Shown in pieces: positions 5,801 through 23,071 of a stretch of 37,628 nucleotides of DNA. Positions within the stretch are counted from its first letter, which is position 1; each line of letters starts with the position of its first letter. Where the stretch lies: contig JADFCW010000020.1 in the NCBI GenBank assembly GCA_017161705.1, positions 1-37,628 on the forward strand. Direction: 5' to 3'. The notes under the pieces were generated by a model. The model saw only the letters and a list, made by a program, of their open reading frames with translations. It was not told the DNA's origin and made no database searches. Both the position numbers and the translations under genes were made by a program. The stretch is from Candidatus Sumerlaeota bacterium (GTDB taxonomy: Bacteria > Sumerlaeota > Sumerlaeia > JADFCW01).

Positions 5801-6180
5801 TCTGGGCTGGCGAAATCCGGATAGAGCAGAATTTCCCTGCCGGTTGGCGACAGAGTGATTTCGAGCCGCTCGGTCTCGCCCGAAGGTTCGACCACAAGTT
5901 CAATGGCCCACACGAGCGAAATCAATTTGCCCGAAAAACTGTAAGGTGCTTTTGGCAGCGTGAAACGGAGCGGTTGTTGATCGCTCAGCGGCGGGCGATC
6001 GAAGCGGAGCGCAGCGGCAACTTCCGTGTCCGTCGTGCCTTTGCCGCGCGTGAACCAGAACAGGCGGACCTCGATGGATTCCGCCGGTTGGTTCAGCCGC
6101 CAGGCGACGTGGCCCTCGACGGTCTCGCTCGGCAAGAACGCTGTGCGGTTGTCGCGGAGGACAATGTAAAGGGCGCTCAC
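5797..6180 (-). CDS. Hypothetical protein, possible arrestin-like beta-sandwich
   Basis: 127-aa ORF with 4-nt overlaps to both neighbours in the same operon. Confidence 0.6.
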   Translation of the reverse strand: MSALYIVLRDNRTAFLPSETVEGHVAWRLNQPAESIEVRLFWFTRGKGTTDTEVAAALRFDRPPLSDQQPLRFTLPKAPYSFSGKLISLVWAIELVVEPSGETERLEITLSPTGREILLYPDFASPE

Positions 6181-7925
6181 GGCTCGTCTCCTTGTTCTCC
6201 ATTGGCGGGCAGGACTGTAAAATCGAACTCTTCATTGACGTCGGGCCATCTGTCCACTTCACCGTGTACTTTGACTTTCCAGACGATTGTATTATTGGGC
6301 GCCGAGAACGAGTGCATCGTATGGGGGGGAATCACGAACCGACCGCGCCCGATTCCCATTTCGGTGCGGTGCGTGGTATCGGCGATGGGGATCGCGGCGA
6401 AAGTCTTCGTATCCGTGGCGGTCGAGGTGCCGCGGCGATACGTGGCTTGCTCGCGGCCCTGGAGTTCAATGCGCAGACGGGAGAGTTTCGACGTCCGGCC
6501 TTTCAACTCCCACTCGATATCCACGGCTGCACCGAGGGGCGCCGCGGCTGCGCTGAGATGGATGCGCGGCCATGGGTTGAACAGGGCAAGGAAGTAATAG
6601 ATGCTGCCGGCGATCATGGCGAGCCCCGCCAGCAGAAAAGGGATCGCAAAAAGGGTTTCGAAATAATTGAGACGGCCTTTTTGCCAACCGGCGGCCACGT
6701 CGGCAAACAGAAATGAGCATATACCGTTCCAGGCGAGTGCGAGGAAAGCCATACCCGCGAACTTGGCCGCCCGTATGCCTTTGGCTTCCAGTGTCACGGG
6801 CCCGGGCGCCGCGTCGGGCAAGGTCCTATGGCGGATTGGCCGCGGTCCACCGGCAGGGTCCATTCTTGTCCAATGCTGCTTATCTTCCACACCGGGCGGG
6901 CGGAGGCGATGAGCAAGACCGATGGCGCCGATTCCCATGAAGGCCAGCGGGATGAGTCCGAAAAGCAGAACAGGAGAGAGCCCCCGTTTGAGGACGGCGT
7001 CGTGCGGGTCTTTGGGATTGACAAAACAGATGGTTTCACGGCCCGGCGGATGCTGCCGCACCACTTTCGCCTTTCCCTCATAGCCGCTGGAGGATAACCG
7101 CAATAAGCCGTAGCGGTTCGACCGGTATTGTTTTCCGTTCACCTCATATTCATACAGAATGTCTATGCTGTAGGTATGGCCGTCATCGTTGGAGTGTGTG
7201 CGCACGGTGCTGGAGATCACTTTGCAAGGCGTGGGCTCCCACTGGCGCGCGGCAAGCCAGCGAAAAACAGGAAGAACCGTAAAGTAATATGACAGCATTC
7301 CGCCGATCAGGAAGAATGCGCCAAAGACGAGTATGCCTCCGGCGGGGCTGGCGACCTTTCGGGGGCGCGGCGTTTTTTTCGATAGGGATACGGACTTTTT
7401 TGCCCGCTTCTTTTTCTTCGAGCGCGCCCCGCCGAACCACAGAAAATAAAGCCCGCCGGCGCCAATCGCCGGGAAGATCAGCGTGATCAGACACGCCAGT
7501 CCCACCAGCGGGCTTTGCGGTTGGAGAATCGCTTCAGTCGGATTCGCGGGATTCACATAACAGCGGGCCGTGCTGCCTGCCGGAAAGCAGTCGGCAAGCC
7601 GCTGTGCCTTGTTGTAGCTCGAATAGCGGGCGCTGCCAAACGTATACTGGTGCGACGTGTATCGCTCGCCGTTGTATGTGTAGCGATATGCAACCTGAAC
7701 CTGATAGGGATTTTCGCCGCCGACATCGTTGACGCCGCTCGAGAGAATCTCGCATTCGACCGTCGGCCAGCTATGGGAACGCGCATTGCGGACGGTCTGC
7801 TGCGCCACGACAACCGTAAGGGCGGAACCGACAAGGAAGAAGGCCGCGAATACTATCGAGCCCACAACCCTGCCCGCACAACCGGGATTGCGGGAGGAGT
7901 TCGCGCCAGATTTGACCGTGAACAT
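6177..7925 (-). CDS. Membrane protein with two DUF3592-like domains and a C-terminal beta-sandwich-like region
   Basis: Two internal repeats of W..(V/C)..SS...Y...Y.Y..NG..Y.S...(C)(Y/F)VNP; several TM segments. Confidence 0.75.
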   Translation of the reverse strand: MFTVKSGANSSRNPGCAGRVVGSIVFAAFFLVGSALTVVVAQQTVRNARSHSWPTVECEILSSGVNDVGGENPYQVQVAYRYTYNGERYTSHQYTFGSARYSSYNKAQRLADCFPAGSTARCYVNPANPTEAILQPQSPLVGLACLITLIFPAIGAGGLYFLWFGGARSKKKKRAKKSVSLSKKTPRPRKVASPAGGILVFGAFFLIGGMLSYYFTVLPVFRWLAARQWEPTPCKVISSTVRTHSNDDGHTYSIDILYEYEVNGKQYRSNRYGLLRLSSSGYEGKAKVVRQHPPGRETICFVNPKDPHDAVLKRGLSPVLLFGLIPLAFMGIGAIGLAHRLRPPGVEDKQHWTRMDPAGGPRPIRHRTLPDAAPGPVTLEAKGIRAAKFAGMAFLALAWNGICSFLFADVAAGWQKGRLNYFETLFAIPFLLAGLAMIAGSIYYFLALFNPWPRIHLSAAAAPLGAAVDIEWELKGRTSKLSRLRIELQGREQATYRRGTSTATDTKTFAAIPIADTTHRTEMGIGRGRFVIPPHTMHSFSAPNNTIVWKVKVHGEVDRWPDVNEEFDFTVLPANGEQGDEP

Positions 7926-7988
7926 GCCGTTGCCATCCTCGCGTTTGCCGCCTCTTTCGGACCCATTGAGTTATGAATACAACTATAC

Positions 7989-8002
7989 GGGGGTTCAACC
8001 CC
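7989..8002. promoter_or_regulatory. Near-perfect palindrome in the divergent promoter region (possible operator)
   Basis: GGGGTTCAACCCC between the divergent DUF3592 operon and the hydrogenase operon. Confidence 0.3.
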
Positions 8003-8107
8003 AAAAACATACCCGGTTGCAGTTTGCACAAGGGCTACCCGAGTGGCTTTTTTCATTTGACAGTGAGCCGTCCATTTTTTGACATGTGGGACGTTGTCTG
8101 GGGTTGG

Positions 8108-8132
8108 TCGGGCTGCAAAAAAGCCCGATTTT
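8108..8132 (+). terminator. Short hairpin plus T-run upstream of the hydrogenase operon
   Basis: TCGGGCT-gcaaaaa-AGCCCGA-TTTT (7-bp stem). Confidence 0.4.
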
Positions 8133-8221
8133 GTAAAAGAATGGTTTGTGAAATTGATCACAAATTGCGCGGACTTGGCAGTCCATCACTTCGCAGCCTA
8201 TTTTTCGAGCATGGCCTGGCG

Positions 8222-8683
8222 TTGCGCTCAACGGTAATTGTAGGTTTAGGCAATGATCTTCTTAGCGACGACGGCGTCGGTCTCTATGTAGCCCGCCGGT
8301 TGCGCCGGCAGTTGGACCCCAGGTTTTATGAGGTTCTCGAGTTATCGGTCGGCGGCATAGAATTGGTGGAACGTCTGGCGGGTTTCCGGCGGGCGATCAT
8401 CATAGACGGCTGCCGAACGGGCCGATGCGTTCCCGGCACTGTGACGCAACATCGAGCGGAGGAGTTCAACCGAAGCCTGCGGCTGAGCTCTTTTCACACG
8501 ATGGATTTTGGAACGGCGCTCGAGCTGGCGCGGCGGCTGGGCGCAAGGCTGCCCGATGAGATCATTGTCTTTGCGATCGAGGTCGAGGACGTTGAAACCC
8601 TGGGGGAGTGCTGCACACCGCATGTCGAGGCGGCGATCGAACCCGCCGCCCGGGCGGTGAGGGAGTTTGTAGAGAGCCGGTAG
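8222..8683 (+). CDS. [NiFe]-hydrogenase maturation endopeptidase (HycI/HyaD/FrcD family)
   Basis: VIVGLGNDLLSDDGVGLYVARRL and IIIDGCRTG motifs; start uncertain (TTG 8222, or ATG 8141 in the same frame). Confidence 0.85.
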   Translation: MRSTVIVGLGNDLLSDDGVGLYVARRLRRQLDPRFYEVLELSVGGIELVERLAGFRRAIIIDGCRTGRCVPGTVTQHRAEEFNRSLRLSSFHTMDFGTALELARRLGARLPDEIIVFAIEVEDVETLGECCTPHVEAAIEPAARAVREFVESR

Positions 8684-8690
8684 CGGATCA

Positions 8691-8726
8691 GTCCGACCTG
8701 TCCGACGCGTCCGACCGGTCCGATTG
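8691..8726 (+). repeat. 9-bp tandem repeat, site 1
   Basis: gtccgacct|gtccgacgc|gtccgaccg|gtccgattg. Confidence 0.8.
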
Positions 8727-8759
8727 ATTCGATGGATCACCCAGAAAGGAAGAACCAGT

Positions 8760-9416
8760 ATGGCGCACCTGGAGACTCCGGGAACGCTGCCCGCGCGCGA
8801 GAGCGAGTTGCGGCGCGCGTTCCTGTCACAAGTGGACATTGTTCCGGGCGGCGAACGGCTGCGAAAGTGCATCCAATGCGGGACGTGCACGGGCTCGTGC
8901 CCTGTCAGTTACGCGATGGACCTGTCGCCGCGCGAGGTCATCGCGCGGTTCCGCGCCGGCGACATCGAGACCATCTTGCGTAGCCGCACCATTTGGATTT
9001 GCGCTTCGTGTTATGCATGCACGGTGCGGTGCCCGGTCGAAATCCGCATCACGGATTTGCTCTATGCCCTCAAGCGCGTGGCCATGGGGAAGAACATTCG
9101 CCCGCGGCAGTTTCCTGTTTATGCGCTGTCGGAGGCGTTCGTGCGCAGCGTGAAGTGGTTCGGCCGCAACTATGAAATGGGCCTGCTGACCGAATTTTTT
9201 CTGCGGTCGCTGAAATGGGTCAATCTCTTAAAGATGGCCCCGCTCGGTCTGAAGATGCTGAAGGCGGGGCGTCTGGGGCTGTTTCCCGAGCGGATTGCCG
9301 GCCACGCCGATTTGAAAAAGATCATCGCGCGCGCCGAAGAGATCGAACAGCCCCGCGAGCCGGTTCCCGTTCGCGCTGTCACCGACGAGGTCGGCTACAA
9401 AGCCATTCAAAGCTGA
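8760..9416 (+). CDS. hdrC: Heterodisulfide reductase subunit C-like, two [4Fe-4S]
   Basis: CIQCGTCTGSCP and CASCYACTVRCP motifs; followed by hdrB. Confidence 0.92.
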   Translation: MAHLETPGTLPARESELRRAFLSQVDIVPGGERLRKCIQCGTCTGSCPVSYAMDLSPREVIARFRAGDIETILRSRTIWICASCYACTVRCPVEIRITDLLYALKRVAMGKNIRPRQFPVYALSEAFVRSVKWFGRNYEMGLLTEFFLRSLKWVNLLKMAPLGLKMLKAGRLGLFPERIAGHADLKKIIARAEEIEQPREPVPVRAVTDEVGYKAIQS

Positions 9417-9436
9417 GTCACGACGGAGAACGTGCA

Positions 9437-10306
9437 ATGGAATACACTTACTATCCGGGGTGCAGTCTGACGAAAACGTCAAAGCCCTATGATCTTTCGA
9501 CCCGGGCGGTTTTCCGGGCTTTGGGCCTGGGCCTGCACGAGCTGGAAGACTGGAATTGCTGCGGCGCCACGGTGTATATGTCGGTCAAGGAGACCGTATC
9601 GTTTTCCATCAGCGCGCGCAATCTGGCGCTGGCCGAGAAGATGAAACGCGACGTGGTGGCGCCGTGCAGTGCGTGCTATCTGGTGCTGAACAAGACTAAC
9701 CGGTTTTTGCGCGAGTTGCCCGATCTGAACGCCAAGGTCAACGACGCGCTGTCGGCGGCGGGACTTTACTATGGCGGAACAGTTCGGGTGCGCCACCCTC
9801 TCGAAGTGCTGATCAATGACCTGGGGATCGAGGGAGTGGCCGCAAAGGCCCGGCGATCGCTCAAGGGATTGAAAATTGCGGAATATTACGGCTGCCAGAT
9901 TGTCCGCCCCCAGCGCGGGTTCGACGACATGGAGTTTCCGCAGACCATGGACCGGCTGTTCGAGGCCCTCGGCGCCGAGAACGTCTATTTTCCGCTCAAG
10001 GTGCGATGCTGCGGCGGCATGTTGATGACAACGGCCAATGACGTGGCCATGAAGCTGTGCCACGACCTGATCGCATGCGCGCAGGGCAACGGCGCCGACT
10101 GTATTGTGACGACCTGTCCGCTGTGTCAGATGAATTTGGCGGCGTATCAAGACCAGCTGTCGGCGAAGTTCGGGGAAGACTTGCACATGCCTATCCTATG
10201 GTTCACCGAGCTGCTCGGCCTGGCGTTGGGATTGGACGTTAGGACCGTTGGATTGAACGCGCATTTGGAGCGGATTCCGGAGAAAATTCTTTCGCTGGCG
10301 GCCTAG
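9437..10306 (+). CDS. hdrB: Heterodisulfide reductase subunit B-like, two CCG domains
   Basis: YYPGCSL...NCCGA...CSACY and YYGCQ...RCCGG...CPLCQMN, i.e. both noncubane cluster motifs. Confidence 0.93.
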   Translation: MEYTYYPGCSLTKTSKPYDLSTRAVFRALGLGLHELEDWNCCGATVYMSVKETVSFSISARNLALAEKMKRDVVAPCSACYLVLNKTNRFLRELPDLNAKVNDALSAAGLYYGGTVRVRHPLEVLINDLGIEGVAAKARRSLKGLKIAEYYGCQIVRPQRGFDDMEFPQTMDRLFEALGAENVYFPLKVRCCGGMLMTTANDVAMKLCHDLIACAQGNGADCIVTTCPLCQMNLAAYQDQLSAKFGEDLHMPILWFTELLGLALGLDVRTVGLNAHLERIPEKILSLAA

Positions 10307-10353: not shown

Positions 10354-11253
10354 ATGGAAAAAATCGGCGTGTATATTTGCCACTGCGGGGTGAACATCGC
10401 GCAGACGGTGGACGTAGAGAAAATCCGCGAGATTGTTTCGCAGCGTAAGGATGTGGCCGCTGCCCGCACCTATAAATTTATGTGCTCGAACACGGGCCAG
10501 GAACTCATTCAACAGGACATCAAGAATTTAGGCTTGACGCGCGTGGTCGTGGCCGCGTGCTCGCCCCTGATGCATGAACTGACCTTTCGCGGAGCGTGTG
10601 AAGGTGCCGGCCTGAACCGTTACCTTTTCCAAATGGCTAACATCCGCGAGCACTGCTCCTGGGTGCACGACGACCGCAAGGCGGCTACCGACAAAGCCCT
10701 CATGCTGGTCAACGCGGCCATCGAGCGGGTCAGCCGCCAGAAGCCGCTGCATCCGTTGCGGGCGGCGATCAACCCTGCAACTCTGGTGGTCGGCGGCGGG
10801 ATCGCCGGAATCCAGGCGGCGCTCGAACTGGCCGAGACGGGCCATCCCGTATATCTGATCGAGCGCGAGCCTTCGATCGGCGGCAAAATGGCCATGTTCG
10901 ACAAGACATTTCCGACGCTCGACTGCGCAGCGTGCATCCTTACGCCCAAGATGGTTTCCGTCAGCCATCGGCACAACATCAAGCTGTTCAGCTACAGCGA
11001 AGTGCAAAAGGTGTCGGGTTTCATCGGCAATTTCAAGGTGCAGGTGCTGAAAAAGGCCCGCTATGTGGACACCGATAAATGCACAGGCTGCGGGCAATGC
11101 TGGTCGCACTGTCCGGCCACGCGCATCCCGCACAAGCGCGAGATTCGGCTGCAGGACCTGATCATCAATCGAAGCGACACCAAAGCCCAGTACGGCGCCA
11201 GGGTTCTGGAGGTCGAGCCGGCACCCGAAGCGCTCGAAGCGGCGGAAGGATAA
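10354..11253 (+). CDS. hdrA: HdrA N-terminal half: N-terminal Fe-S domain, FAD ADP-binding fold, start of the inserted ferredoxin domain
   Basis: VYICHCGVNIAQTVD; LVVGGGIAGIQAALELAETGHPVYLIEREPSIGGKMAMFDKTFPTLDCAACILTPKM; CTGCGQCWSHCP; ORF ends where canonical HdrA continues. Confidence 0.9.
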   Translation: MEKIGVYICHCGVNIAQTVDVEKIREIVSQRKDVAAARTYKFMCSNTGQELIQQDIKNLGLTRVVVAACSPLMHELTFRGACEGAGLNRYLFQMANIREHCSWVHDDRKAATDKALMLVNAAIERVSRQKPLHPLRAAINPATLVVGGGIAGIQAALELAETGHPVYLIEREPSIGGKMAMFDKTFPTLDCAACILTPKMVSVSHRHNIKLFSYSEVQKVSGFIGNFKVQVLKKARYVDTDKCTGCGQCWSHCPATRIPHKREIRLQDLIINRSDTKAQYGARVLEVEPAPEALEAAEG

Positions 11254-11408: not shown

Positions 11409-11786
11409 ATGACGCTGAATGAAGTAAAACACATTCTCCAATGCGAGGTGATCGCAGGCGAAGACCGCTTGAACACGGAGGTCAGGATGGGCTGCGGCTC
11501 CGATCTGATGAGCGACGTGCTGGCGTTTACCAAGGCCGACGCACTTTTGTTGACGGGGCTGGCCAACCGGCAGGTGATTCGGACGGCGGAAGTGGCCGAC
11601 ATCCGGGCGGTCGTTCTGGTTCGCGGCAAACGGCCCGACGCCGAAATGGTGGCTCTGGCGCGCGAGCAAGGGATCCCGCTGATGGTCACGAACGTGTTGC
11701 TCTATGAAGCGTGCGGGCGGCTGTATCGGGCGGGGCTGCCCGGCTGCAGCGAAGTGCCGGCGGCCGAGGGCGGAACGGCAGGATGA
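11409..11786 (+). CDS. DRTGG domain protein
   Basis: MTLNEVKHILQCEVIAGEDRLNTEVRMGCGSDLMSDVLAF; typical of hydrogenase-associated DRTGG proteins. Confidence 0.8.
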   Translation: MTLNEVKHILQCEVIAGEDRLNTEVRMGCGSDLMSDVLAFTKADALLLTGLANRQVIRTAEVADIRAVVLVRGKRPDAEMVALAREQGIPLMVTNVLLYEACGRLYRAGLPGCSEVPAAEGGTAG

Positions 11787-12208
11787 ACGGAGGGACGTTC
11801 AGGCGCGAGTTCGAGGTGACAGGCGGCGACTTTTACAACGCCGGACGCGTTTCGACGGAAATCAAGGAAATCCTTCGGCAGATCGGCATCGCGGCACCGA
11901 AAATCCGCCGCATCGCCATCGCTGCTTACGAAGCCGAGATGAACATCGTCATGTATGCCCGTAGCGGGATGGTGATCCTGCAAGTGACGCCGGAAATCGT
12001 CCGACTCGATGTCAGCGATGTCGGGCCGGGAATCGAAAACATCGAGCTGGCGATGCAGGAAGGGTACTCAACGGCGTCGGAAGAAATGCGCGCGCTTGGT
12101 TTTGGCGCGGGCATGGGATTGCCCAACATCAAGAAAAATGCCGACCGGTTTGAAATCCGTTCGGAAGTGGGAAAAGGCACCACATTGGAAATTGAGGTTA
12201 ACCTGTAG
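11783..12208 (+). CDS. HATPase / anti-sigma-factor-like ATP-binding protein
   Basis: VSDVGPGI and GFGAGMGLPNIKKNADRFEIRSEVGKGT (N and G boxes); ATGA overlap with the upstream gene. Confidence 0.85.
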   Translation: MNGGTFRREFEVTGGDFYNAGRVSTEIKEILRQIGIAAPKIRRIAIAAYEAEMNIVMYARSGMVILQVTPEIVRLDVSDVGPGIENIELAMQEGYSTASEEMRALGFGAGMGLPNIKKNADRFEIRSEVGKGTTLEIEVNL

Positions 12209-12313: not shown

Positions 12314-13612
12314 ATGACGCGAAACGGCGGCTCCATACGAATAGACGAGGCGCGCTGCACGGGCGACATGGCGTGCATGCGGGTATGCCCGACCGAGGCG
12401 ATTCGGGTGCGCGGCGGCAAAGCGCGGCTGCTCGAGTCGCGCTGCATAGACTGCGGCGAGTGTATTCGCGTCTGTCGCCCGCGGGCGGTCAGTCCTGTGA
12501 CCAATTCGTTCGCCGAACTGTCGAGGTTTGACTATCGCGTGGCTCTCGCTTCGCCGGTCATCTACGGCCAGTTCGGTCCGGCGGCATCCCCCGAACGGAT
12601 TCTGGCAGCACTGGAGAAAGCGGGATTCGATTGTGCCGTGGACTCGACGCAAACGTGCGAAGCGGTCAGCGCCGCCATTGGGCATTATCTGCGGACGTCG
12701 GGCGGCCCCCGGCCTCTGATCTCCTGCTTCTGTCCCACCGTCCTGAGATTGATCGAGGTTCGCTATCCAGAACTGATCGAGCTGGTCATTCCGATCGAGT
12801 CGCCGAAAGAGATTTTGGCGCGCGAGGTCCGAAAGGCCAAAGCGCGCGATCTGAATCTGCCGGAAGACCGTATCGGGATCATTTACCTGACGCCGTGTCC
12901 GGGAAAAATGCTGGACGTGCTCGAGCGACCCGGACGGCGGCGGTCCAACGTCAACGGCGCCATTGCGATCTCGGACATTTACCGCACGGTCCGTTCGCTT
13001 TTGCCGATTGCCAGAGGCAGCGGTGGCGGGCGGCCGCAAATCTCCGCCGTTGGGTTGACGTGGGCCACGCTCGGCGGCCAGACGGCCTTTCTTCCGCCCG
13101 AACATCGCCTCGAGGTGGCCGGCTTGCGCAACGTCGAGCGCATTCTCACCGATATCGAGATGGGGAAGTTGCGCGATGTCGAGTACGTCGAGTTGCACAC
13201 CTGTCCGGATGGCTGCGTCAGCGGGTCGCTATTAGTGGAAAACCCGTATGTGGCGCGGGGTCGCATTCTGGAAATCATCGGCCGTCTGGGCCCGCAGCCG
13301 CGCGAGCGCGAACTGGCCGAGTTTTGCGAAAAGGGCGAGTATCTGGCCGACCGGAACCTGTCGGCGCAGGCGCCGGGGGCTCTGGATCTCGATGTCGGGC
13401 GGGCCATCTCGAAAATCCGCCGGCTCGAAGATATTCAGCAGCTGGTGCCCAATATCAATTGCGGCGCCTGCGGCGCGCCCTCCTGCACGGCATTTGCCGA
13501 AGACGTCGTCCGCGAGGAAGCCCATCTGAACGATTGCGTTTTTATGGCGCTGAGCCAGCTGCGCGCGAAACACAACCAGGTCGTGGACGTAGTGCGGGAA
13601 GCCAAGGGGTGA
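12314..13612 (+). CDS. [FeFe]-hydrogenase-like Fe-S protein: ferredoxin domain, degenerate H-cluster-type domain, C-terminal Cys4 Fe-S domain; likely sensor/regulator
   Basis: CTGDMACMRVCP...CIDCGECIRVC; ISCFCPTVLRLIEVRYPEL; LTPCPGKML; ELHTCPDGCVSGS; CGACGAPSCTAFAEDVV. Confidence 0.8.
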   Translation: MTRNGGSIRIDEARCTGDMACMRVCPTEAIRVRGGKARLLESRCIDCGECIRVCRPRAVSPVTNSFAELSRFDYRVALASPVIYGQFGPAASPERILAALEKAGFDCAVDSTQTCEAVSAAIGHYLRTSGGPRPLISCFCPTVLRLIEVRYPELIELVIPIESPKEILAREVRKAKARDLNLPEDRIGIIYLTPCPGKMLDVLERPGRRRSNVNGAIAISDIYRTVRSLLPIARGSGGGRPQISAVGLTWATLGGQTAFLPPEHRLEVAGLRNVERILTDIEMGKLRDVEYVELHTCPDGCVSGSLLVENPYVARGRILEIIGRLGPQPRERELAEFCEKGEYLADRNLSAQAPGALDLDVGRAISKIRRLEDIQQLVPNINCGACGAPSCTAFAEDVVREEAHLNDCVFMALSQLRAKHNQVVDVVREAKG

Positions 13613-13688: not shown

Positions 13689-14048
13689 ATGAAACTGAGT
13701 GAAATCCTCCAGCAATTGGACGCGGCGGTCTGCACGCATCCCGAGCGCGCCGATACCGAGGTGACCGGAGGCTACTGCGGCGATCTGTTGAGCGATGTCA
13801 TTGCCAACGCCCAGGCAGGCCAGGTGTGGGTGACCATTCAGGTTCATTCGAACATCGTAGCGGTGGCGGCGCTGAAAGACTTGGCGGCGGTCATTCTGGC
13901 CAACGGCCGCAAGCCGCAGGAGGACACTCTCCGGAAAGCGCAGGAACAGAACGTGACGCTGCTGACCAGCCCCATGACTAGTTTCGAGTTGGCAGGAAAG
14001 ATATATACCATGATTGCGCATTTAGATTTGGGTTCCGGGTGCCGATGA
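13689..14048 (+). CDS. Second DRTGG domain protein
   Basis: MKLSEILQQLDAAV...GGYCGDLLSDVIANAQAGQVWVTIQ; parallels 11409-11786. Confidence 0.8.
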   Translation: MKLSEILQQLDAAVCTHPERADTEVTGGYCGDLLSDVIANAQAGQVWVTIQVHSNIVAVAALKDLAAVILANGRKPQEDTLRKAQEQNVTLLTSPMTSFELAGKIYTMIAHLDLGSGCR

Positions 14049-14779
14049 AACGCTGGAGGGCCGACCTCCATATTCATACCTGTTTGTCGCCTTGCGCGGA
14101 ATGGGAAATGACCCCGCGGGCGATTGTGAAAAGAGCAAAGGAGATCGGGTTGGATCTGATCGCAATCTGCGATCACAACAGTGGGGAGAATGCCGAGGCG
14201 GCCGTGGAAGCCGGTCAACGCGAGGGACTGGCGGTCGTGCGCGGTATCGAGATTACCACCGAGGAAGAGGTGCATATCCTGGGGCTGTTCGATCGGCCCC
14301 GCAACCTGGAGGCCGTCCAGGAACATATCTACGCCTATTTGCCGGGCGAAAACATCCCCGACGTCTTTGGCTATCAAGTGGTCGTGGATGCAGCCGACGA
14401 GATTGTCGGCGAAAACCCGCGCCTGCTCATCGGCGCCGCCCGCCTTGCGCTGGAGGAAGCGGTCGGCCTGATTCAGGCGCACGACGGAGTGGCAATCGCC
14501 GCGCACATTGACCGCGAGGGATTCGGGCTGATTGGGCATCTGGGATTTGTGCCCGACGTCCCTCTGGACGGGCTGGAAATTTCGCCGCTGATGACCGTCG
14601 AGGAGGCGGAGGAAAAATTCGGCCTGGGCGGGCGGTTCGGATTGATTCAGGCCTCCGACGCCCATCGGCTGGACGAGATTGGGCGGGTTGCAACCCTATT
14701 CGAACTGGCGGAGCCGACGGTTACCGAGATTCGCCTGGCCTTGCAGGAACGCCAGGGAAGGAGAGCGCGAAACGCCTAG
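14045..14779 (+). CDS. PHP domain metal-dependent phosphoesterase
   Basis: DLHIHTCLSPC; ICDHNSGEN; GIEITTEEEVHILGLF; AAHIDREGFGL; SDAHRLDE; ATGA overlap with the upstream gene. Confidence 0.9.
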   Translation: MKRWRADLHIHTCLSPCAEWEMTPRAIVKRAKEIGLDLIAICDHNSGENAEAAVEAGQREGLAVVRGIEITTEEEVHILGLFDRPRNLEAVQEHIYAYLPGENIPDVFGYQVVVDAADEIVGENPRLLIGAARLALEEAVGLIQAHDGVAIAAHIDREGFGLIGHLGFVPDVPLDGLEISPLMTVEEAEEKFGLGGRFGLIQASDAHRLDEIGRVATLFELAEPTVTEIRLALQERQGRRARNA

Positions 14780-14795
14780 CACGCGGAGACCGACA

Positions 14796-15329
14796 GTGGA
14801 GGAACTGGCGCTTCATATCCTCGACATCGCGGAGAACTCGATCCGCGCAGGAGCGCGGACCATCGAAATCGAAGTCGCGGAGGACCTTCAACAGGATCGG
14901 CTGCTCATCACGATCCGGGACAACGGCAAGGGAATGGACAAGCGAACGCTGCGCCATGCGCTCGATCCGTTCTTTACGACCAAACCCAACAAGCGCGTAG
15001 GACTGGGATTGCCGCTGCTGGCAGCAGCGGCCCGGCAAGCCGGCGGCGACATCGCAATCCGATCCAAGCGGGGGGCGGGAACCGAGGTCGAGGCCGCGTT
15101 CCAATACAGCCACGTGGACCGCCAGCCGCTGGGCAATCTCGCCGCGACAATGGAGGCATTGATCATCGGAAATCCGGACGTGGATTTCCGCCTCGTTCAT
15201 CGGAGTCCGAAAGGAGTAAAGCAACTGGATACGCGCAACATTCGGGCGGCGCTCGACGGGGCGCCGATCAACTCGATCGAAGGCATACGCAGGGTCAAAC
15301 AGAGCATGGAGGAACACGGATGGCGATAA
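14796..15329 (+). CDS. HATPase (histidine-kinase-like ATP-binding) protein
   Basis: GTG start; ALHILDIAENSIRAGA; IRDNGKGMD; FFTTKPNKRVGLGLPLLAAAARQAGGDIAIRSKRGAGT. Confidence 0.88.
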   Translation: MEELALHILDIAENSIRAGARTIEIEVAEDLQQDRLLITIRDNGKGMDKRTLRHALDPFFTTKPNKRVGLGLPLLAAAARQAGGDIAIRSKRGAGTEVEAAFQYSHVDRQPLGNLAATMEALIIGNPDVDFRLVHRSPKGVKQLDTRNIRAALDGAPINSIEGIRRVKQSMEEHGWR

Positions 15330-15826
15330 AAGAGGTCAGCGAGGAGAAAGTCCGGGAGATTGCCCGTCGCTGGGGCGGACGCGAAGGCTTCCTCGTCGAA
15401 ATGCTGCAGGATGTGCAAACCGAATATCGCTATATCCCGGAGGCGGCGATCCGAACGCTCTCCAAAGAGGTGGGCGTGCCGGTCGGCCAGATTTATCATC
15501 TGGCGACGTTTTTCAAACGGTTCAGCCTCAAGCCGCGCGGCGAGCACGTGGTCAGCGTCTGCACGGGAACCGCTTGTCATGTCAAAGGGGCGCCGCGGGT
15601 GCTGGATGCGTGCGCGCGGGAACTGGGCATCGGGGTCGGCGAGACCACCCGTGACGGCAAGTTCACGCTCGAAGAGGTGCGCTGTCTGGGCTGCTGCGGT
15701 CTGGCCGCCGTTGTTACGGTCAACGACGATATCCATGGGCATGTCACAACGTCGAAAGTTCCGCGTTTGTTGAAACGATACAAAGGAACGGAGAAGGCGA
15801 GCCATGGCGAAGCTGACGATCAGTGA
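15320..15826 (+). CDS. nuoE: NuoE/HydC-like [2Fe-2S] NADH-oxidoreductase subunit
   Basis: VCTGTACHVKGAPRVLDAC...CLGCCGLAAVVTVND; 10-nt overlap with the upstream gene. Confidence 0.93.
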   Translation: MAIKEVSEEKVREIARRWGGREGFLVEMLQDVQTEYRYIPEAAIRTLSKEVGVPVGQIYHLATFFKRFSLKPRGEHVVSVCTGTACHVKGAPRVLDACARELGIGVGETTRDGKFTLEEVRCLGCCGLAAVVTVNDDIHGHVTTSKVPRLLKRYKGTEKASHGEADDQ

Positions 15827-16187
15827 GCTGCAAAAACTGCGCGAGAAACTGGCGCAGGAACGCCAGACGCGCGAGGGCAATGCCCGCGGGCAGATTATCA
15901 TCCACATGGGCACATGCGGAATCGCCGCCGGCGCGCGAAAAGTCCTGACGGCGCTGCTCGAGGCGATGGACAAGCAGAATGTCCGCGACGTGATAGTCAG
16001 CACGTCGGGCTGCGCCGGCATGTGCAGCAAAGAGCCGATGGCCACCGTGCAACTGCCCCAACAGGCGCCGGTGAAATATATCTCGCTCAACGAGGAGAAA
16101 ATTGTCCGCATCCTCAACGAGCACCTGCTCCAGGGCAACGTGGTCAAGGAGTTTGCTCTGGCTGTCGGCAGCGAGCGGATGGGATGA
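15804..16187 (+). CDS. Thioredoxin-like [2Fe-2S] ferredoxin
   Basis: IHMGTCGIAAGARKVL...STSGCAGMCSKEPMATV; overlaps nuoE end. Confidence 0.85.
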   Translation: MAKLTISELQKLREKLAQERQTREGNARGQIIIHMGTCGIAAGARKVLTALLEAMDKQNVRDVIVSTSGCAGMCSKEPMATVQLPQQAPVKYISLNEEKIVRILNEHLLQGNVVKEFALAVGSERMG

Positions 16188-16261: not shown

Positions 16262-18052
16262 ATGCCTTACCGACTTCACATGATGGTGTGCGCGGGAACC
16301 GGTTGCGTCAGCAACCGCTCGCTGGAATTGCGCGATGCGCTGTCGGCCGAGCTGGCCAGGCGCGGCTTGGACAAGGAAATCGAGATTGTAACGACCGGCT
16401 GCAATGGCTTCTGCGGCGTCGGGCCGATCCTGCTCGTGCAGCCCGACGGCATCTTCTATCAAAAGGTGCAGGTGAAAGACGTGCCGCTGCTGGTCGAGGA
16501 ACACTTGGTGAAAGGCCGGCCGGTCAAATCGTTGATGTTCACGCCGCCCGAGGCCAAAGAGCCCGTACCTCGGATGCGCGACATTCCATTTTTTGGCAAG
16601 CAGATGCTGGTCGCGCTCCGCAACCGCGGGATGATTGATCCGGAGAAAATCGAGGACTATATCGCGCGTGGAGGCTATCAGGCGCTGGCCAAGGCTCTGA
16701 CCACCATGACGCCAAAGCAGATCATCGAGGAGATCAAGGCGTCCGGTCTGCGGGGGCGCGGCGGCGGCGGATTCCCCACGGGCATCAAGTGGGAGACCTG
16801 CGTCCATGCCCACTCCGAGGATGGCGTGCGCTATCTGGTCTGCAACGCCGACGAGGGCGACCCGGGCGCCTTTATGGACCGCAGCATCATCGAGGGCGAT
16901 CCGCACTCGGTCATCGAGGGGATGGTGATCGGCGCCTATGCCATTGGCGCGCATCAGGGATACATCTATGTTCGCCACGAATATCCTCTGGCGCTCAAAC
17001 GGTTCATGATTGCGCTCGACCAGGCGCGCGAATACGGCCTGCTGGGCAAGGATATTCTGGGGACAGGCTTTGATTTCGACATCGAGGTGCATCGCGGCGC
17101 GGGCGCGTTTGTGTGCGGCGAGTCCACGGCGCTGATGGCCTCGATCGAAGGCCGCGTCGGCGAACCGCGCGCCAAATACATTCACACCGTCGAGGTGGGC
17201 CTTTACAACAAACCGACGGTGCTGAACAACGTGGAGACGTTTGCCAACGTGCCGGTTATCATTGAGCGCGGGGCCAAATGGTTCGCTTCGATCGGCACGG
17301 AACACAGCAAGGGAACCAAGGTGTTTTCGCTGGCTGGCCGGGTGAAAAACACGGGATTGGTCGAGGTGCCGATGGGTCTTTCGCTGCGCGAGTTGATTTT
17401 CGATATCGGCGGCGGAATTGCCGACAACGGGAAATTCAAAGCGGTGCAGACAGGGGGCCCGTCGGGTGGCTTCCTTCCCGAAGATTTGCTCGATCTGCCG
17501 GTGGACTATGAAAAACTTTACGAGGCCGGCTCCATGATGGGCTCCGGCGGCGTCGTGGTCATGGACCATACCTCGTGCATGGTGGACGTGGCGCGGTTCT
17601 TTGTGGATTTCCTCCAGAGCGAGTCGTGCGGCAAGTGCACGCCGTGCCGCGAGGGCATCAAGGCGATGCACGGCATCCTGTCGCGCATTTGCGACGGCAA
17701 AGGCAGCGAAGCGGACCTGGCGACGCTGGAAGAACTGTGCTCCGTCGTTGCCGACACCTCGTTGTGCGCCCTGGGCGGCAGCGCGCCGAATCCCGTGCTG
17801 ACCTCGCTTCGCTATTTCCGCAGCGAGTATGAGGCGCATCTTCAGGGGAAATGCCCGGCGGGGGTCTGTCGGGCGCTGATCACGTTCCGGATCAACGACA
17901 AATGTACGGGCTGTCATCTGTGCTTCAAGGCGTGTCCGACCTCGGCGGTCCTGGGCGAGCCAAAACAGATGCACAGCATTATTCAGGGAAAATGCATCAA
18001 ATGCGGCGCCTGCTATGATGTGTGCAAGTTCGAGGCAGTGACGAAGGAGTAA
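16262..18052 (+). CDS. nuoF: NuoF/HydB-like NADH-binding subunit with N-terminal [2Fe-2S] and C-terminal two-[4Fe-4S] domains
   Basis: GLRGRGGGGFPTGIKW; GAGAFVCGESTALMASIEGRVGEPR; ESCGKCTPCREG; CTGCHLCFKACP and CIKCGACYDVC. Confidence 0.95.
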   Translation: MPYRLHMMVCAGTGCVSNRSLELRDALSAELARRGLDKEIEIVTTGCNGFCGVGPILLVQPDGIFYQKVQVKDVPLLVEEHLVKGRPVKSLMFTPPEAKEPVPRMRDIPFFGKQMLVALRNRGMIDPEKIEDYIARGGYQALAKALTTMTPKQIIEEIKASGLRGRGGGGFPTGIKWETCVHAHSEDGVRYLVCNADEGDPGAFMDRSIIEGDPHSVIEGMVIGAYAIGAHQGYIYVRHEYPLALKRFMIALDQAREYGLLGKDILGTGFDFDIEVHRGAGAFVCGESTALMASIEGRVGEPRAKYIHTVEVGLYNKPTVLNNVETFANVPVIIERGAKWFASIGTEHSKGTKVFSLAGRVKNTGLVEVPMGLSLRELIFDIGGGIADNGKFKAVQTGGPSGGFLPEDLLDLPVDYEKLYEAGSMMGSGGVVVMDHTSCMVDVARFFVDFLQSESCGKCTPCREGIKAMHGILSRICDGKGSEADLATLEELCSVVADTSLCALGGSAPNPVLTSLRYFRSEYEAHLQGKCPAGVCRALITFRINDKCTGCHLCFKACPTSAVLGEPKQMHSIIQGKCIKCGACYDVCKFEAVTKE

Positions 18053-18113: not shown

Positions 18114-19886
18114 ATGATCAAACTGCGAATTGACGGAAATGAAGTCGAGGTCAATGCGGGAACTCCGCTCCTGAAGGCGGCTCAGAAACTGAATATCGAG
18201 ATCCCCACGCTGTGCCACTATGAGGGGATCGAGCCGTATGCCGCCTGCCGGGTCTGCACGGTGGAGGTGGTGCGCGGCCGTCGCCGGCGCATGGTCACCG
18301 CGTGCAACTATCCGGCCACCGACGGCATCGAGGTGTTCACCGACAACGAGCGGGTGAGGCGCGCGCGCCGGCTGAATCTCGAAATGCTTCTCGGCCGGTG
18401 TTCCGAGGTGCCGGCGATTCGAGCGTTGGCCGCCAAATACGGCGTCGAGAAATCCCGCTTCGGCTACGATCCGAAGGAAAAATGCATTCTGTGCGGCCTG
18501 TGCGTGCGGATGTGCAGCGACATCGTCAAGGCCAACGTCCTCAGCTTTGCCTACTCCGGGCCGCGCCGCAAGGTCGTTACGCCTTTTGAGCGCGAGATGG
18601 CCACCGATGTGTGCATTGCATGCGGGGCCTGTGCGCACGTTTGCCCGACTGGGGCGATCACCATTGAGGACTTGTCCCAGCGGCGCGGCGAAGTGCCGGA
18701 AATGTATCTAGGTCCAAAGACAGCCATCTCGATTCCGTTCCAGCAGGCCGTGCCCAAGGTGCCCTATATTGATCCTGACGCGTGCATCAAAATGCAAACG
18801 GGCGGCTGCGGCATTTGCGCGCAGGTCTGCGAACCCGAAGCGATCAACTACAAGATGCAGGACGAGGTGGTGGAACTGGACGTCGGGCAGATTCTTGTCG
18901 CCACCGGCTACCAGATTTTCGACGCCTCGCAAATGGCCCAATACGGCTACGGCAAGCTGGACAATGTGCTGTCGGCGCTGGAATTCGAGAAGATGCTCAA
19001 CTCGACGGGGCCGACGGGCGGGCGTGTACTGACCAAGAACGGCAAAGAGCCTCGTGCCATCGGGATTATCCATTGCATCGGCTCGCGGGACGCCCGCTAC
19101 CACAAATACTGCTCGCGCGTCTGCTGCATGTATGCCCTGAAGTTTGCCCACCTGGTCAAGGATCGCACCAACGCCGAGGTTTATCAATTCTACATTGACA
19201 TGCGGGCGTTTGGCAAAGGCTACGAAGAATTCTATTCCCGCGTCCTCGACGAAGGGGTCAATGTGATCCGCGGCAAGGCAGCCGAAGTGGTCGAGGCCAC
19301 GTGGGGCAATGAGCGCGAGGGCCACCTCCTGGTGCGCTGCGAGGATACCCTCATCGGCAAGTTCCGCGAAGTGCCGGTGGATATGGTGGTGCTCTGCGCG
19401 GCGATCGAACCCAACGTGGATCAGGAGCGTGTCGGCCAGATTTTCTCGCTCAGCCGCAGTCCGGACGGTTTTTTCCTCGAACGCCACCCGAAGCTTGATC
19501 CGATGGGAACGGTCAACGACGGCATTTATCTGGCCGGCTGCTGCCAGGGGCCGAAGGACATTCCCGACACGGTGGCGCAGGCGCAGGGAGCTGCCGCTCG
19601 CATTCTTGCGATGATTGCCAAGGGCGAAGTTCTCCTCGATCCGATTCGGGCGAGCATAGACGAGAATCTGTGCGGCGGCTGCAAGGTGTGCAACAATCTG
19701 TGTCCCTACATGGCCATCACGTTCGACGACGTGAAAAAGGTTTCTGTCGTCAACGAAACTCTCTGCAAGGGCTGCGGCACGTGCGTGGCTGCCTGTCCGG
19801 CAGGCGCCATCACGGGCAGCGGCTTTACCGATGAACAAATATTTGCGGAAATCGAAGGTATTCTCGCAGATGCTGGAAATAAGTAG
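18114..19886 (+). CDS. Fusion of NuoG/HydA-type [2Fe-2S]+2x[4Fe-4S] N-terminus with the C-terminal half of HdrA
   Basis: N-term: CHYEGIEPYAACRVCTVEVVRGRRRRMVTAC, CILCGLCVRMC, CIACGACAHVCP. From ~AISIPFQQAVPKVPYIDPDACI onward HdrA-like: ELDVGQILVATGYQIFD, CIGSRDARYHKYCSRVCCMYALKFAHLVK, RAFGKGYEEFY, LAGCCQGPKDIPDTVAQA, two C-terminal [4Fe-4S] motifs. Confidence 0.93.
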   Translation: MIKLRIDGNEVEVNAGTPLLKAAQKLNIEIPTLCHYEGIEPYAACRVCTVEVVRGRRRRMVTACNYPATDGIEVFTDNERVRRARRLNLEMLLGRCSEVPAIRALAAKYGVEKSRFGYDPKEKCILCGLCVRMCSDIVKANVLSFAYSGPRRKVVTPFEREMATDVCIACGACAHVCPTGAITIEDLSQRRGEVPEMYLGPKTAISIPFQQAVPKVPYIDPDACIKMQTGGCGICAQVCEPEAINYKMQDEVVELDVGQILVATGYQIFDASQMAQYGYGKLDNVLSALEFEKMLNSTGPTGGRVLTKNGKEPRAIGIIHCIGSRDARYHKYCSRVCCMYALKFAHLVKDRTNAEVYQFYIDMRAFGKGYEEFYSRVLDEGVNVIRGKAAEVVEATWGNEREGHLLVRCEDTLIGKFREVPVDMVVLCAAIEPNVDQERVGQIFSLSRSPDGFFLERHPKLDPMGTVNDGIYLAGCCQGPKDIPDTVAQAQGAAARILAMIAKGEVLLDPIRASIDENLCGGCKVCNNLCPYMAITFDDVKKVSVVNETLCKGCGTCVAACPAGAITGSGFTDEQIFAEIEGILADAGNK

Positions 19887-19919: not shown

Positions 19920-20333
19920 ATGACAATGGCGTTCGAACCCAAAATCGTAGGCTTTTTGTGCAATTGGTGTTCTTATACCGGCGCGGATTTGGCGGGGGTT
20001 TCTCGGATTAAGTGGCCGCCCAACGTACGGCCTATTCGCGTAATGTGCTCGGGACGCATTGACCCGACTTTTGTCGTCAAGGCATTCCGCGAGGGGGCCG
20101 ACGGGGTACTGGTCAGCGGCTGTCATCCCGGCGACTGCCACTACTATCAGGGCAATTACAAGGCGCTGCGCCGATATCATCTTCTGCGGCGTGTGCTCGA
20201 GCAATTCGGCATCCATCCCGACCGGCTCATGCTGACCTGGGTGTCGGCGGCCGAGGGCGAGCGCTGGGCCAAAGTGACCCAGGAAATCACGGAACGCGTG
20301 CGGAAACTGGGCCCGCTGCATCTGAAGGACTGA
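19920..20333 (+). CDS. mvhD: F420-non-reducing hydrogenase iron-sulfur subunit D (MvhD)-like
   Basis: GFLCNWCSYTGADLAG...VMCSGRIDP...SGCHPGDCHYYQGN. Confidence 0.93.
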   Translation: MTMAFEPKIVGFLCNWCSYTGADLAGVSRIKWPPNVRPIRVMCSGRIDPTFVVKAFREGADGVLVSGCHPGDCHYYQGNYKALRRYHLLRRVLEQFGIHPDRLMLTWVSAAEGERWAKVTQEITERVRKLGPLHLKD

Positions 20334-20503: not shown

Positions 20504-21490
20504 ATGCCAAAACCCAAGGTAGCACTTTACTGGGCGGCCAGCTGCGGCGGCTGTGAAATCACCGTGGTGGACATCGAGGCGCACATTCTGGATGTCGCCA
20601 AGGCCTTCGATATCGTCTTTTGGCCCTGCCTGATGGACTTCAAGGTCAAAGATGTCGAGGCCATCGAAGACGGCGGCATCTTTGTCACTTTGTTCAACGG
20701 CGCCATACGGAATAGCGAGCAAGAGCACCTCGCCAAACTCCTGCGTCGCAAGTCCAAAGTGCTCGTGGCCTTTGGCTCGTGCGCGCACGAAGGCTGCATT
20801 CCCGGCCTGGCCAACGTAACCAACCGCGACGAGATTTTCAAAACTGTCTATCAGGAAACCGCCTCGACCGACAATCCCAAGGGAGTTCTCCCGCAAACCA
20901 AGACCGAGATGCCCGAGGGGGTGCTGGAAATCCCCGAGTTCTGGAACAAGGTTTGCTCGCTCGACCAGGTGGTGGACGTGGACTATTATGTGCCCGGCTG
21001 CCCGCCGCAGTCCAATCAGGTGTGGGCCGTGCTCGACCATCTCATCCAAGGCAAACCGTTGCCGCCCAAAGGCTCCATTCTCGGCGCCGGACAGAAAACC
21101 TGCTGCGACGAATGCCCGCGCGTACGCAAAGAAAAGAAGATCAAGCGGTTTTATCGCACCCATGAGATCGTCCCGAACCCCGAGGAATGCCTGCTGGATC
21201 AAGGCCTGCTGTGCATGGGACCGGCCACGCGCGACGGCTGCGGCGCCAAGTGTGTCAAGGTGGGCGTTCCCTGCCGCGGCTGCTACGGCCCGCCCCCCGG
21301 CTCGCACGACATGGGGATGAAGATGATCAGTGCCCTGAGCTCCGTGATCGATTCCGAAGACCCTGCGGAAATCGAGCGAATTATTGCCACCATCGCCGAC
21401 CCCGTCGGCACATTCTACCGCTTCAATCTCGCACACTCGATTTTGTACCGTGTGCAGGAGGATTTGAAGGAGAAACAAGCAGTAAAGTAG
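20504..21490 (+). CDS. mvhG: [NiFe]-hydrogenase small subunit, MvhG-like (group 3c-like)
   Basis: ALYWAASCGGCEITVVD; FGSCAHEGCIPGLAN; YVPGCPPQSNQVW; C-terminal GCGAKCVKVGVPCRGCYGP. Confidence 0.93.
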   Translation: MPKPKVALYWAASCGGCEITVVDIEAHILDVAKAFDIVFWPCLMDFKVKDVEAIEDGGIFVTLFNGAIRNSEQEHLAKLLRRKSKVLVAFGSCAHEGCIPGLANVTNRDEIFKTVYQETASTDNPKGVLPQTKTEMPEGVLEIPEFWNKVCSLDQVVDVDYYVPGCPPQSNQVWAVLDHLIQGKPLPPKGSILGAGQKTCCDECPRVRKEKKIKRFYRTHEIVPNPEECLLDQGLLCMGPATRDGCGAKCVKVGVPCRGCYGPPPGSHDMGMKMISALSSVIDSEDPAEIERIIATIADPVGTFYRFNLAHSILYRVQEDLKEKQAVK

Positions 21491-21592: not shown

Positions 21593-23071
21593 GTGAAACG
21601 CTACACGATTGATCCCGTCACACGCCTCGAGGGCCATGGCAAGATTGAGATCTTTGTCAATGACGAGGGCGAGGTGGAAAACGCGTATTTCCAGATTCCG
21701 GAGCTGCGCGGCTTCGAGAGGTTTTGTGTCGGCCGGCCCGTCGAGGAAATGCCGCGCATCACCACGCGTTTGTGCGGCGTGTGTCCCGAAGCGCATCACA
21801 TGGCGGCGGCCAAGGCCTGCGATGCCGTCTACCACGTCGAGATTCCGCCGGCGGCGAAGAAGTTGCGCGAACTGCTGTATTCATTCTTTTTTACCGCGGA
21901 CCACACGGTGCACTTTTACGCGCTGGCCGGCCCGGACTTTGTCTGCGGCCCCGATGCGCCGCCGGCCGAACGCAACATCCTTGGACTGATCGCCAAAGTC
22001 GGCCTCGACGCCGGTCTCCAAGTGATCCAGTGCCGCGCGCGCTGCCAGGAAATGATCGAAAAGCTGGGCGGCAAGAAAATTCACCAGGTGACCTCGATTC
22101 CCGGCGGCGTCACCGTGGGACTGACGAAAGAAGACCAACAGAAAGCAATTGATTACGCCAAGCAGAATATCGAATTCGCCAAGTTCACACTCAAGGTCCT
22201 CGAAGACGTAGTCCTCAAGAACAAGGCGTATCTCGATCTCATTCTCGGCGACGCTTACAGACACGAAACCTACTACATGGGCCTGGTGGACGAGAACAAC
22301 AAGGTCAACTTTTACGACGGCAAGGTCCGGGTTGTCGGGCCCGACGGCACGGAGCACTGCAAGTATTCTCCCCACGAATACCGCGAGTATATCGCCGAGC
22401 GCGTGGAGCCGTGGACCTATCTGAAATTCCCCTATCTAAAAAAGATCGGCTGGAAGGGATTTGTGGACGGCAAGGACAGCGGCGTCTATTGCGCTACGCC
22501 GCAGTCGCGCCTCAACGCCGCCGACGGCATGGCTACGCCGCTGGCGCAGGCCGAATATGAAAAGATGTTCGAGACGCTGACGGGGGACAAGGCGGGCAAG
22601 AAACCTATCCATGCACGGCTGGCCACGCATTGGGCGCGCGTCATCGAGTTGACGTATGCCGCCGAACGCTCGCTCGAATTGGCCCAGGACCCCGAAATTA
22701 CCAGCGACAAGATTCGGACCATTCCCACGGCCAAACCCGACGAAGGGATCGGCATCGTCGAGGCGCCGCGCGGCACGCTCACGCATCACTACTGCACCGA
22801 CGAGCGGGGCATTCTGACGAAGGTCAATCTGGTGGTCGGGACTACCAACAACTATGCGCCGATCGCCATGTCGGTCAAACGCGCAGCCCAGAAACTCATC
22901 AAGAAAGGCGCGGCCGTGACCGACGCCCTCCTCAACATGGTCGAGATGGCATTCCGGCTCTATGATCCGTGCTTCGGTTGCGCCACCCACACCCTGCCCG
23001 GCCAAATGCCGCTGATTGTGACCATCCGCGACCTGGCCGGCAACGTGAAGCAGGAATTCCGCCGCGATTGA
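21593..23071 (+). CDS. mvhA: [NiFe]-hydrogenase large subunit, MvhA-like
   Basis: GTG start; RLCGVCPEAHH (L1) and LYDPCFGCATH (L2) [NiFe] ligand motifs; C-terminal extension TLPGQMPLIVTIRDLAGNVKQEFRRD. Confidence 0.95.
   Translation: MKRYTIDPVTRLEGHGKIEIFVNDEGEVENAYFQIPELRGFERFCVGRPVEEMPRITTRLCGVCPEAHHMAAAKACDAVYHVEIPPAAKKLRELLYSFFFTADHTVHFYALAGPDFVCGPDAPPAERNILGLIAKVGLDAGLQVIQCRARCQEMIEKLGGKKIHQVTSIPGGVTVGLTKEDQQKAIDYAKQNIEFAKFTLKVLEDVVLKNKAYLDLILGDAYRHETYYMGLVDENNKVNFYDGKVRVVGPDGTEHCKYSPHEYREYIAERVEPWTYLKFPYLKKIGWKGFVDGKDSGVYCATPQSRLNAADGMATPLAQAEYEKMFETLTGDKAGKKPIHARLATHWARVIELTYAAERSLELAQDPEITSDKIRTIPTAKPDEGIGIVEAPRGTLTHHYCTDERGILTKVNLVVGTTNNYAPIAMSVKRAAQKLIKKGAAVTDALLNMVEMAFRLYDPCFGCATHTLPGQMPLIVTIRDLAGNVKQEFRRD

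Follow-up and report, generated by a model that had tools for sequence, protein, structure and literature searches.

A protein encoded at positions 18114–19886 of the 37,628-nucleotide stretch of Candidatus Sumerlaeota DNA analysed here (the window) raises the question of how a NuoG/HydA-like module and HdrA come to share one chain and whether electrons could pass between them. An earlier note had described this protein, which we name FUS, as a NuoG/HydA–HdrA fusion lacking the His-Cys3 cluster segment and had proposed that it forms a hard-wired conduit from NuoE and NuoF into the HdrA flavin.

Architecture of the fusion protein

The description as a fusion holds: the gene is an intact open reading frame encoding 590 amino acids from an ATG start, with no internal stop and no frameshift, and a BfuA/HydA/NuoG-type module stands ahead of HdrA sequence. 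The Pfam matches are Fer2_4 (residues 1–78), a Fer4 dicluster (123–181) and a second dicluster (514–567). The HydA-A6, HoxU and NuoG profiles of NCBIfam match the first ~190 residues, and residues 197–586 correspond to positions 263–643 of the 777 positions of the HdrA2 profile. Residues ~160–588 align with solved HdrA proteins, from residue ~240 to their C-terminus. The HdrA part of FUS comprises the second half of the inserted ferredoxin domain, the residues K343 and E292, and the C-terminal 2x[4Fe-4S] domain. Domain and profile searches of FUS found no H-cluster or molybdopterin-type C-terminal domain as in NuoG or HydA. HdrA does stand in that place, as had been claimed, but merely with its C-terminal ~400 residues, the HdrA N-terminal domain and the GxGxxG half of its FAD domain being missing.

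In an alignment of the window FUS with 21 orthologs, the cysteines of the N-terminal [2Fe-2S] cluster (C34, C45, C48 and C64) and the two following [4Fe-4S] sets, which had already been noticed from the sequence and map to the dicluster at 123–181, are invariant. The His-Cys3 motif is absent from the window FUS and from all 21 aligned orthologs. Its absence had been presented as a special trait of the fusion, a view that has to be abandoned. Type 2 Bfu enzymes are defined by a BfuA without clusters A3 and A5 (PMC9304861); taking cluster A3 to be the His-Cys3 cluster, which is our reading, its absence from FUS is not novel, since Type 2 BfuA proteins also lack it. The best structural match to the N-terminal module of FUS is the 247-residue BfuA of the tungsten aldehyde oxidoreductase Wor-Bfu (9mqx_A), with an rmsd of 1.6 Å over 188 columns; the two are colinear and there is no His-Cys3 insert.

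The orthologs belong to 21 other loci in about ten phylum-level lineages and share 50–96% identity, one of the loci (L028) lying on a closed chromosome (CP054675); this recurrence argues against the architecture being due to chance or to an assembly error. A misread stop or frameshift at the fusion boundary, raised in the earlier note as a possible objection, is ruled out by the single open frame and by the same architecture in the 21 other loci. The note had also considered that the arrangement could prove widespread and already characterised. Widespread it is, but no characterisation was found in the searchable literature; within the open literature, our search found no description of a BfuA–HdrA fusion or of a split HdrA.

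K343 and E292 are invariant in the 22 FUS sequences and correspond to K409 and E356 of Methanothermococcus HdrA (numbering via 5odc_A), which have been described as marks of the bifurcating HdrA flavin (PMC12054007; PMC9430772). The GxGxxG of the HdrA FAD domain is absent from all 22, the GxG-like matches in some of them being ferredoxin-type or unrelated stretches. In intact HdrA from related loci, GGGIAGIQAALE, near residue 150–190, is the ADP-binding GxGxxG of the FAD domain. FUS has thus kept one half of the flavin site and lacks the other.

HdrA is divided between two genes

That the FAD half had been lost altogether was considered and overturned by a translated search with HdrA N-halves, whose match at 10360–11124 (+) located a stand-alone gene, HdrA_N, in the same window (Table 1). 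HdrA_N contains the N-terminal domain, the GGGIAGIQAALEL FAD half and the first cluster motif, CTGCGQCWSHCP, of the inserted ferredoxin domain. The two halves are complementary, HdrA_N covering positions 1–260 and FUS 263–643 of the HdrA2 profile, and the cut separates one cluster motif of the inserted ferredoxin domain from the other: HdrA_N stops just past CTGCGQCWSHCP, the HdrA part of FUS starts just before the second motif (C224, C232, C235 and C239), and the BfuA (NuoG-N) module precedes the HdrA C-terminal half exactly at this cut. The cysteines of both the inserted and the C-terminal ferredoxin domains of HdrA are present, those of the inserted domain being divided between HdrA_N and FUS. 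A whole FAD (TrxR-like) domain with its GxGxxG is not found in FUS, the motif lying in HdrA_N; since the ADP-binding half is on a separate subunit, FUS alone would be unable to form an FAD site.

All 17 HdrA_N sequences compared conserve the GxGxxG (G147, G149 and G152) and the cluster cysteines without exception. A stand-alone HdrA_N was found upstream of FUS in each of the 18 other loci whose contigs extend far enough; in two of these, L011 and L030, the copy is frameshifted. L017, L023 and L027, where the contig reaches less than 1.3 kb beyond FUS on the upstream side, stand outside this count. It is also present in G012 and G011, which belong to the same phylum as the window genome. At the level of the coding sequences, our results show HdrA to be encoded by two genes, HdrA_N and FUS, and a split HdrA is strongly supported.

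Table 1. Features of the gene cluster in the window, in gene order, and single-chain versions in other loci
Feature	Coordinates	Strand	Remarks
HycI-type [NiFe]-hydrogenase maturation protease	8141..8683	+	TIGR00072; start codon approximate
HdrC-like	8760..9416	+	two CxxCxxCxxxCP motifs ([4Fe-4S])
HdrB	9437..10306	+	two intact CCG motifs (non-cubane cluster type); TIGR03288 E 8.6e-61
HdrA_N	10354..11253	+	stand-alone HdrA N-terminal half, 299 aa; HdrA2 profile 1-260 of 777, E 1.5e-109
DRTGG-domain-like protein 1	11409..11786	+	regulatory, HydABC-operon type; by eye, resembles the second DRTGG gene; conserved position
Anti-sigma-type HATPase	11783..12208	+	
Degenerate [FeFe]-hydrogenase-like Fe-S protein	12314..13612	+	RnfB-like FeS domain; altered L1/L2/L3 motifs
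DRTGG-domain protein 2	13689..14048	+	
PHP-domain protein	14045..14779	+	
HATPase-domain protein	14796..15329	+	start codon approximate
NuoE/BfuC	15320..15826	+	thioredoxin-like [2Fe-2S]
Small [2Fe-2S] thioredoxin-like ferredoxin (HydD-like)	15804..16187	+	
NuoF/BfuB	16262..18052	+	FMN/NADH subunit, C-terminal 2x[4Fe-4S], B2-cluster ligands
FUS	18114..19886	+	BfuA/NuoG-N module ([2Fe-2S] + 2x[4Fe-4S], aa 1-~190, no His-Cys3) and HdrA C-terminal half (aa ~195-590)
MvhD	19920..20333	+	[2Fe-2S] linker between hydrogenase and HdrA
MvhG	20504..21490	+	small subunit, group 3c [NiFe]-hydrogenase
MvhA	21593..23071	+	large subunit, group 3c [NiFe]-hydrogenase; both CxxC nickel motifs, cleavable C-terminal extension
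Single-chain version	L022:7032-9542		
Single-chain version	L105:4634-7498	-	
Single-chain version	L106:3232-5799	-	

Several observations bear on whether the two halves work as one unit. HdrA_N, the two-[4Fe-4S] part of BfuA and HdrA-C are joined in a single chain of 856–955 aa in L022 (Planctomycetota) and in L105 and L106 (two Sumerlaeota genomes), where the gene sits between HycI-HdrC-HdrB and MvhDGA; these single-chain versions have no [2Fe-2S] domain and their loci no BfuBC. Pairwise distances computed from HdrA_N track those computed from the HdrA-C part of FUS (Mantel r 0.87, 17 loci, permutation p 0.0002), and the correlation is still 0.75 with the BfuB distances removed and 0.74 with those of the BfuA part removed. 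The two parts of the FUS chain itself correlate less (0.68, and 0.34 with the BfuB distances removed). Odd placements are common to the C-half and HdrA_N trees: both place L024 together with type I HdrA of Dehalococcoidia and L067 next to its own type III HdrA from the same locus.

When FUS was modelled alone by AlphaFold, the BfuA module was predicted with good confidence and the score dropped below 50 at residues 186–218, 249–265 and 456–511, segments that, on this model, should be the remnants expected to pack on the missing HdrA half. The equivalent FAD segments of the L022 fusion score about 71–93, and its model matches 5odc_A with a TM of 0.84 (target-normalised) against 0.33 for FUS alone, a contrast that is supportive and not decisive, since intact HdrA sequences were also part of the L022 alignment. 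In a second cluster, found on contig C370 of the same genome (L092) and also present in a congener (L114), the N-terminus of NuoE/BfuC carries the HdrA FAD half as a fusion, next to BfuB and a NuoG–HdrA-C protein; this fusion connects the flavin half to the Bfu core a second time and independently.

Taken together, these observations make it probable that FUS is one half of a split HdrA, assembling with HdrA_N into a split-HdrABC/BfuBC(/Mvh) complex in which BfuA is grafted on the low-potential exit. We predict that the complex forms and that FAD is bound in trans. One genome (G002) possesses both a single-chain and a split system.

The gene cluster in the window

All genes of the cluster lie on the plus strand, with intergenic gaps of at most 170 bp and several overlaps, and we infer that they are transcribed as one unit; a scan of the cluster for promoters and terminators gave no signal above shuffled sequence. 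Alongside the split HdrA, the window encodes the other elements of HdrABC (an HdrB with two CCG motifs and an HdrC with two [4Fe-4S] motifs), those of a group 3c [NiFe]-hydrogenase, MvhAGD (N- and C-terminal CxxC nickel motifs, the small subunit and MvhD), and the minimum of the BfuABC family, namely BfuC and a BfuA with [2Fe-2S] and [4Fe-4S] clusters, A3 and A5 being missing as in Type 2.

The NuoF of the window is BfuB: it matches HydB of A. mobile (7t2r_B) at full length, over residues 3–595, and comprises FMN/51K, NADH_4Fe-4S and C-terminal 2x[4Fe-4S] domains. By alignment, it has all five ligands of the B2 cluster (A. mobile C438, C476, H525, C531 and C536); across related BfuB sequences, four of them are invariant (17/17) and C476 occurs in 7 of 17. 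The degenerate [FeFe]-hydrogenase-like protein is probably a redox sensor or regulator inherited from a HydABC operon. The catalytic hydrogenase subunits of the operon in which it lies are solely [NiFe].

Distribution and evolution

The gene order of the window is retained in a congener (L109), and the most constant set across lineages is HdrBC, HdrA_N and FUS. BfuBC adjoins FUS in most loci, the exceptions being L015, whose genome has BfuB elsewhere, and L025; MvhDGA is not adjacent in L014, L015, L016, L018, L024 and G012. Since each is missing beside FUS in some loci, neither BfuBC nor MvhDGA is strictly obligatory. The hydrogenase looks like a plug-in to a core formed by the Hdr–Bfu junction.

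Neither FUS nor HdrA_N is monophyletic in the C-half and HdrA_N trees, and the FUS label has to change at least seven times at starred nodes of the C-half tree. The trees do not support one common origin of the fusion: in both, FUS C-halves and HdrA_N are interspersed with HdrA of types I and III. Because they do not form single clades, the split would have arisen several times, or there would have been joint exchange of the two halves with resident HdrA copies. For L023, L024 and L067, the split halves group with HdrA paralogs from their own lineage, suggesting gene conversion or a repeated origin of the split. As for the Bfu part, the HydABC-type regulators in the cluster, including the degenerate [FeFe]-hydrogenase-like protein, suggest that it derives from a HydABC operon in which HdrA replaced the H-cluster domain.

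Proposed mechanism and alternative explanations

In MvhAGD-HdrABC, electrons from H2 pass through MvhD and the C-terminal ferredoxin domain to the HdrA FAD, from which one branch leads to HdrC/HdrB and the low-potential branch runs via the inserted ferredoxin domain to free ferredoxin. This inserted domain of HdrA has been named as the ferredoxin-binding one (PMC9430772). In the system proposed here, HdrA_N and FUS would assemble into one FAD site, with HdrC/HdrB docking on the HdrA_N side and BfuB/BfuC on the N-terminal module of FUS; the C-terminal ferredoxin domain would take up MvhD together with the MvhGA hydrogenase, just as it does in MvhAGD-HdrABC. Because BfuA is grafted exactly at the inserted ferredoxin domain, the low-potential port of HdrA, a path from the HdrA FAD to the BfuB FMN is possible: on leaving the FAD, the low-potential branch would cross the inserted clusters and then the [4Fe-4S] clusters of BfuA before reaching the FMN, where NAD(H) and ferredoxin would be the exchange partners, and electrons could also take this route backwards. 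In this way, NAD(H), ferredoxin and a thiol/disulfide acceptor at HdrB, together with H2 in the window genome, would be linked by one reversible complex.

The conduit between NuoE/NuoF and HdrA is well supported, given that the covalent BfuA–HdrA link is conserved and that NuoE/NuoF adjoin in nearly all loci. What needs amending in the original proposal is its end point in the flavin, since FUS is without the ADP-binding half and the graft point is the inserted ferredoxin domain. The arrangement suggests two energy-conserving machines wired together. More tentatively, and with nearly as much to be said for it as against it, it could represent a new subclass of energy-coupling enzymes, with an HdrA FAD built from two polypeptides and a Bfu FMN-FeS site in series, an internal BfuA wire replacing mobile ferredoxin, and one soluble complex equilibrating NAD(H), ferredoxin, a bacterial disulfide/thiol couple and H2.

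FUS could instead function without an HdrA flavin, its HdrA half serving as an Fe-S and MvhD-docking scaffold that passes electrons from MvhGA to BfuA in a plain NiFe-Bfu (HydABCSL-like) hydrogenase, with HdrA_N serving otherwise. Such an enzyme would fit the lack of GxGxxG in all 22 orthologs and the loci L017 and L027, where FUS-MvhDGA directly follows BfuB; the NiFe-Bfu of Acetomicrobium mobile indeed joins BfuABC to a group 3 hydrogenase without HdrA (PMC9304861). We consider it unlikely, however, in view of the invariance in FUS of the K and E that contact the flavin N5, of the presence of HdrA_N in every testable locus and its co-variation with the HdrA half beyond background, of the single-chain versions, and of the several FUS loci without an adjacent hydrogenase. 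It is also quite improbable that the operon encodes two separate enzymes, an ordinary HdrABC-MvhAGD and an ordinary BfuABC, the fusion being a convenience of expression across which no electrons flow. All subunits of both known complexes are present and the HydABC-type regulatory genes lie between the two sets, as this explanation would have it, but the sole BfuA of the cluster is covalently part of HdrA and occupies the ferredoxin port, the site at which a GltD module is inserted in other HdrA (PMC12054007). In the second cluster, the fusion of the HdrA FAD half to NuoE ties flavin domain and Bfu core together from the opposite direction.

Nearly all loci are contigs of metagenome-assembled genomes (MAGs), and HdrA_N is frameshifted in L011 and L030, so that one may ask whether fragmented MAGs have produced the split artificially, through misassembly or frameshifts. 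The probability of this is negligible: several other genes separate the halves in most loci, each half has a proper start and stop of its own, and about ten phyla show the split in this form, the closed chromosome being among the cases. We favour a split HdrA wired through BfuA to the Bfu core.

Relation to known systems

Compared with the methanogen MvhAGD-HdrABC (PDB 5odc), the window system has in common HdrB with two CCG motifs, HdrC, the HdrA domains with K409/E356, MvhD and a group 3c MvhGA; it differs in that HdrA consists of two polypeptides, a BfuA module lies in the split ferredoxin domain, and BfuB/BfuC are encoded in the same cluster. With Type 2 Bfu enzymes such as Wor-Bfu (9mqx) it shares the B2-cluster ligands of BfuB, BfuC and a BfuA N-terminal module without His-Cys3, and with the Type 3 NiFe-Bfu HydABCSL (7t2r) the group 3 [NiFe] catalytic subunits. 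Unlike in the BfuABC (HydABC) family, BfuA is fused to half of HdrA, and HdrBC and a second (HdrA) flavin site are added. The accessible part of PMC9304861 lists no Hdr-Bfu type with a split HdrA.

The Bam complex (class II benzoyl-CoA reductase, BamBCDEFGHI) also combines a Bfu module with an HdrA-type module, and two bifurcation events have been proposed for it (PMC9304861; PMC12054007). Its BfuA (BamI) is described as a separate subunit, whereas that of the window is fused to HdrA, and its catalytic partner is a tungsten benzoyl-CoA reductase instead of HdrBC and a hydrogenase. Type III HdrA (GltD-inserted; also Moorella HdrA) likewise has its inserted ferredoxin domain interrupted, between the two cluster motifs, by an NAD(P)H module. 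Many members share the Mvh gene neighbourhood, and the C-half of type III HdrA is 58–74% identical; these proteins are, however, single polypeptides with GltD in place of BfuA and without BfuBC. Their GltD is an independent precedent for an NAD(H) module in the ferredoxin port (PMC12054007). In Sumerlaeota, group 3c mvhADG with hdrABC2 has been reported, the split and the Bfu link not being noted in the accessible part of that survey (PMC8092238).

If the split-HdrA reading is true, the flavin domain at which HdrA bifurcates electrons can withstand division into two pieces, the ferredoxin port of HdrA serves NAD(H) modules (GltD, BfuA) as a general socket, and the complex is a natural system coupling two kinds of electron bifurcation, as proposed, not demonstrated, for the Bam complex. 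It also carries a warning for annotation: in these MAGs the gene pair resembles a truncated HdrA and a mis-annotated NuoG, so that an Hdr complex which is likely complete may be missed or taken for an incomplete one.

Other HdrA-type genes were encountered in the course of the analysis. Bacterial type III HdrA, with GltD in the ferredoxin domain, occurs in L029–L056 and other loci as ORFs of ~1140–1220 aa, often with MvhDGA, in Zixibacteria, Calditrichota, Aminicenantes, Actinomycetota, Gemmatimonadota and others; a 2025 survey of type III HdrA has methane- and alkane-metabolizing archaea as its sole scope. The order of the second cluster (L092, ~2775–9692) is the FAD half–NuoE/BfuC fusion, BfuB, a NuoG-N/HdrA-C protein joined to a full HdrA, and MvhD, the joined proteins forming one 1088-aa ORF in L092 and two neighbouring ORFs in L114; HdrB/HdrC-like and Flx-like genes lie close by. 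Contig C316 of the window genome (L093, ~5500–9100, minus strand) encodes a QmoA/QmoB-like pair, consisting of a 462-aa HdrA without the N-terminal domain and a 738-aa HdrA–MvhD fusion.
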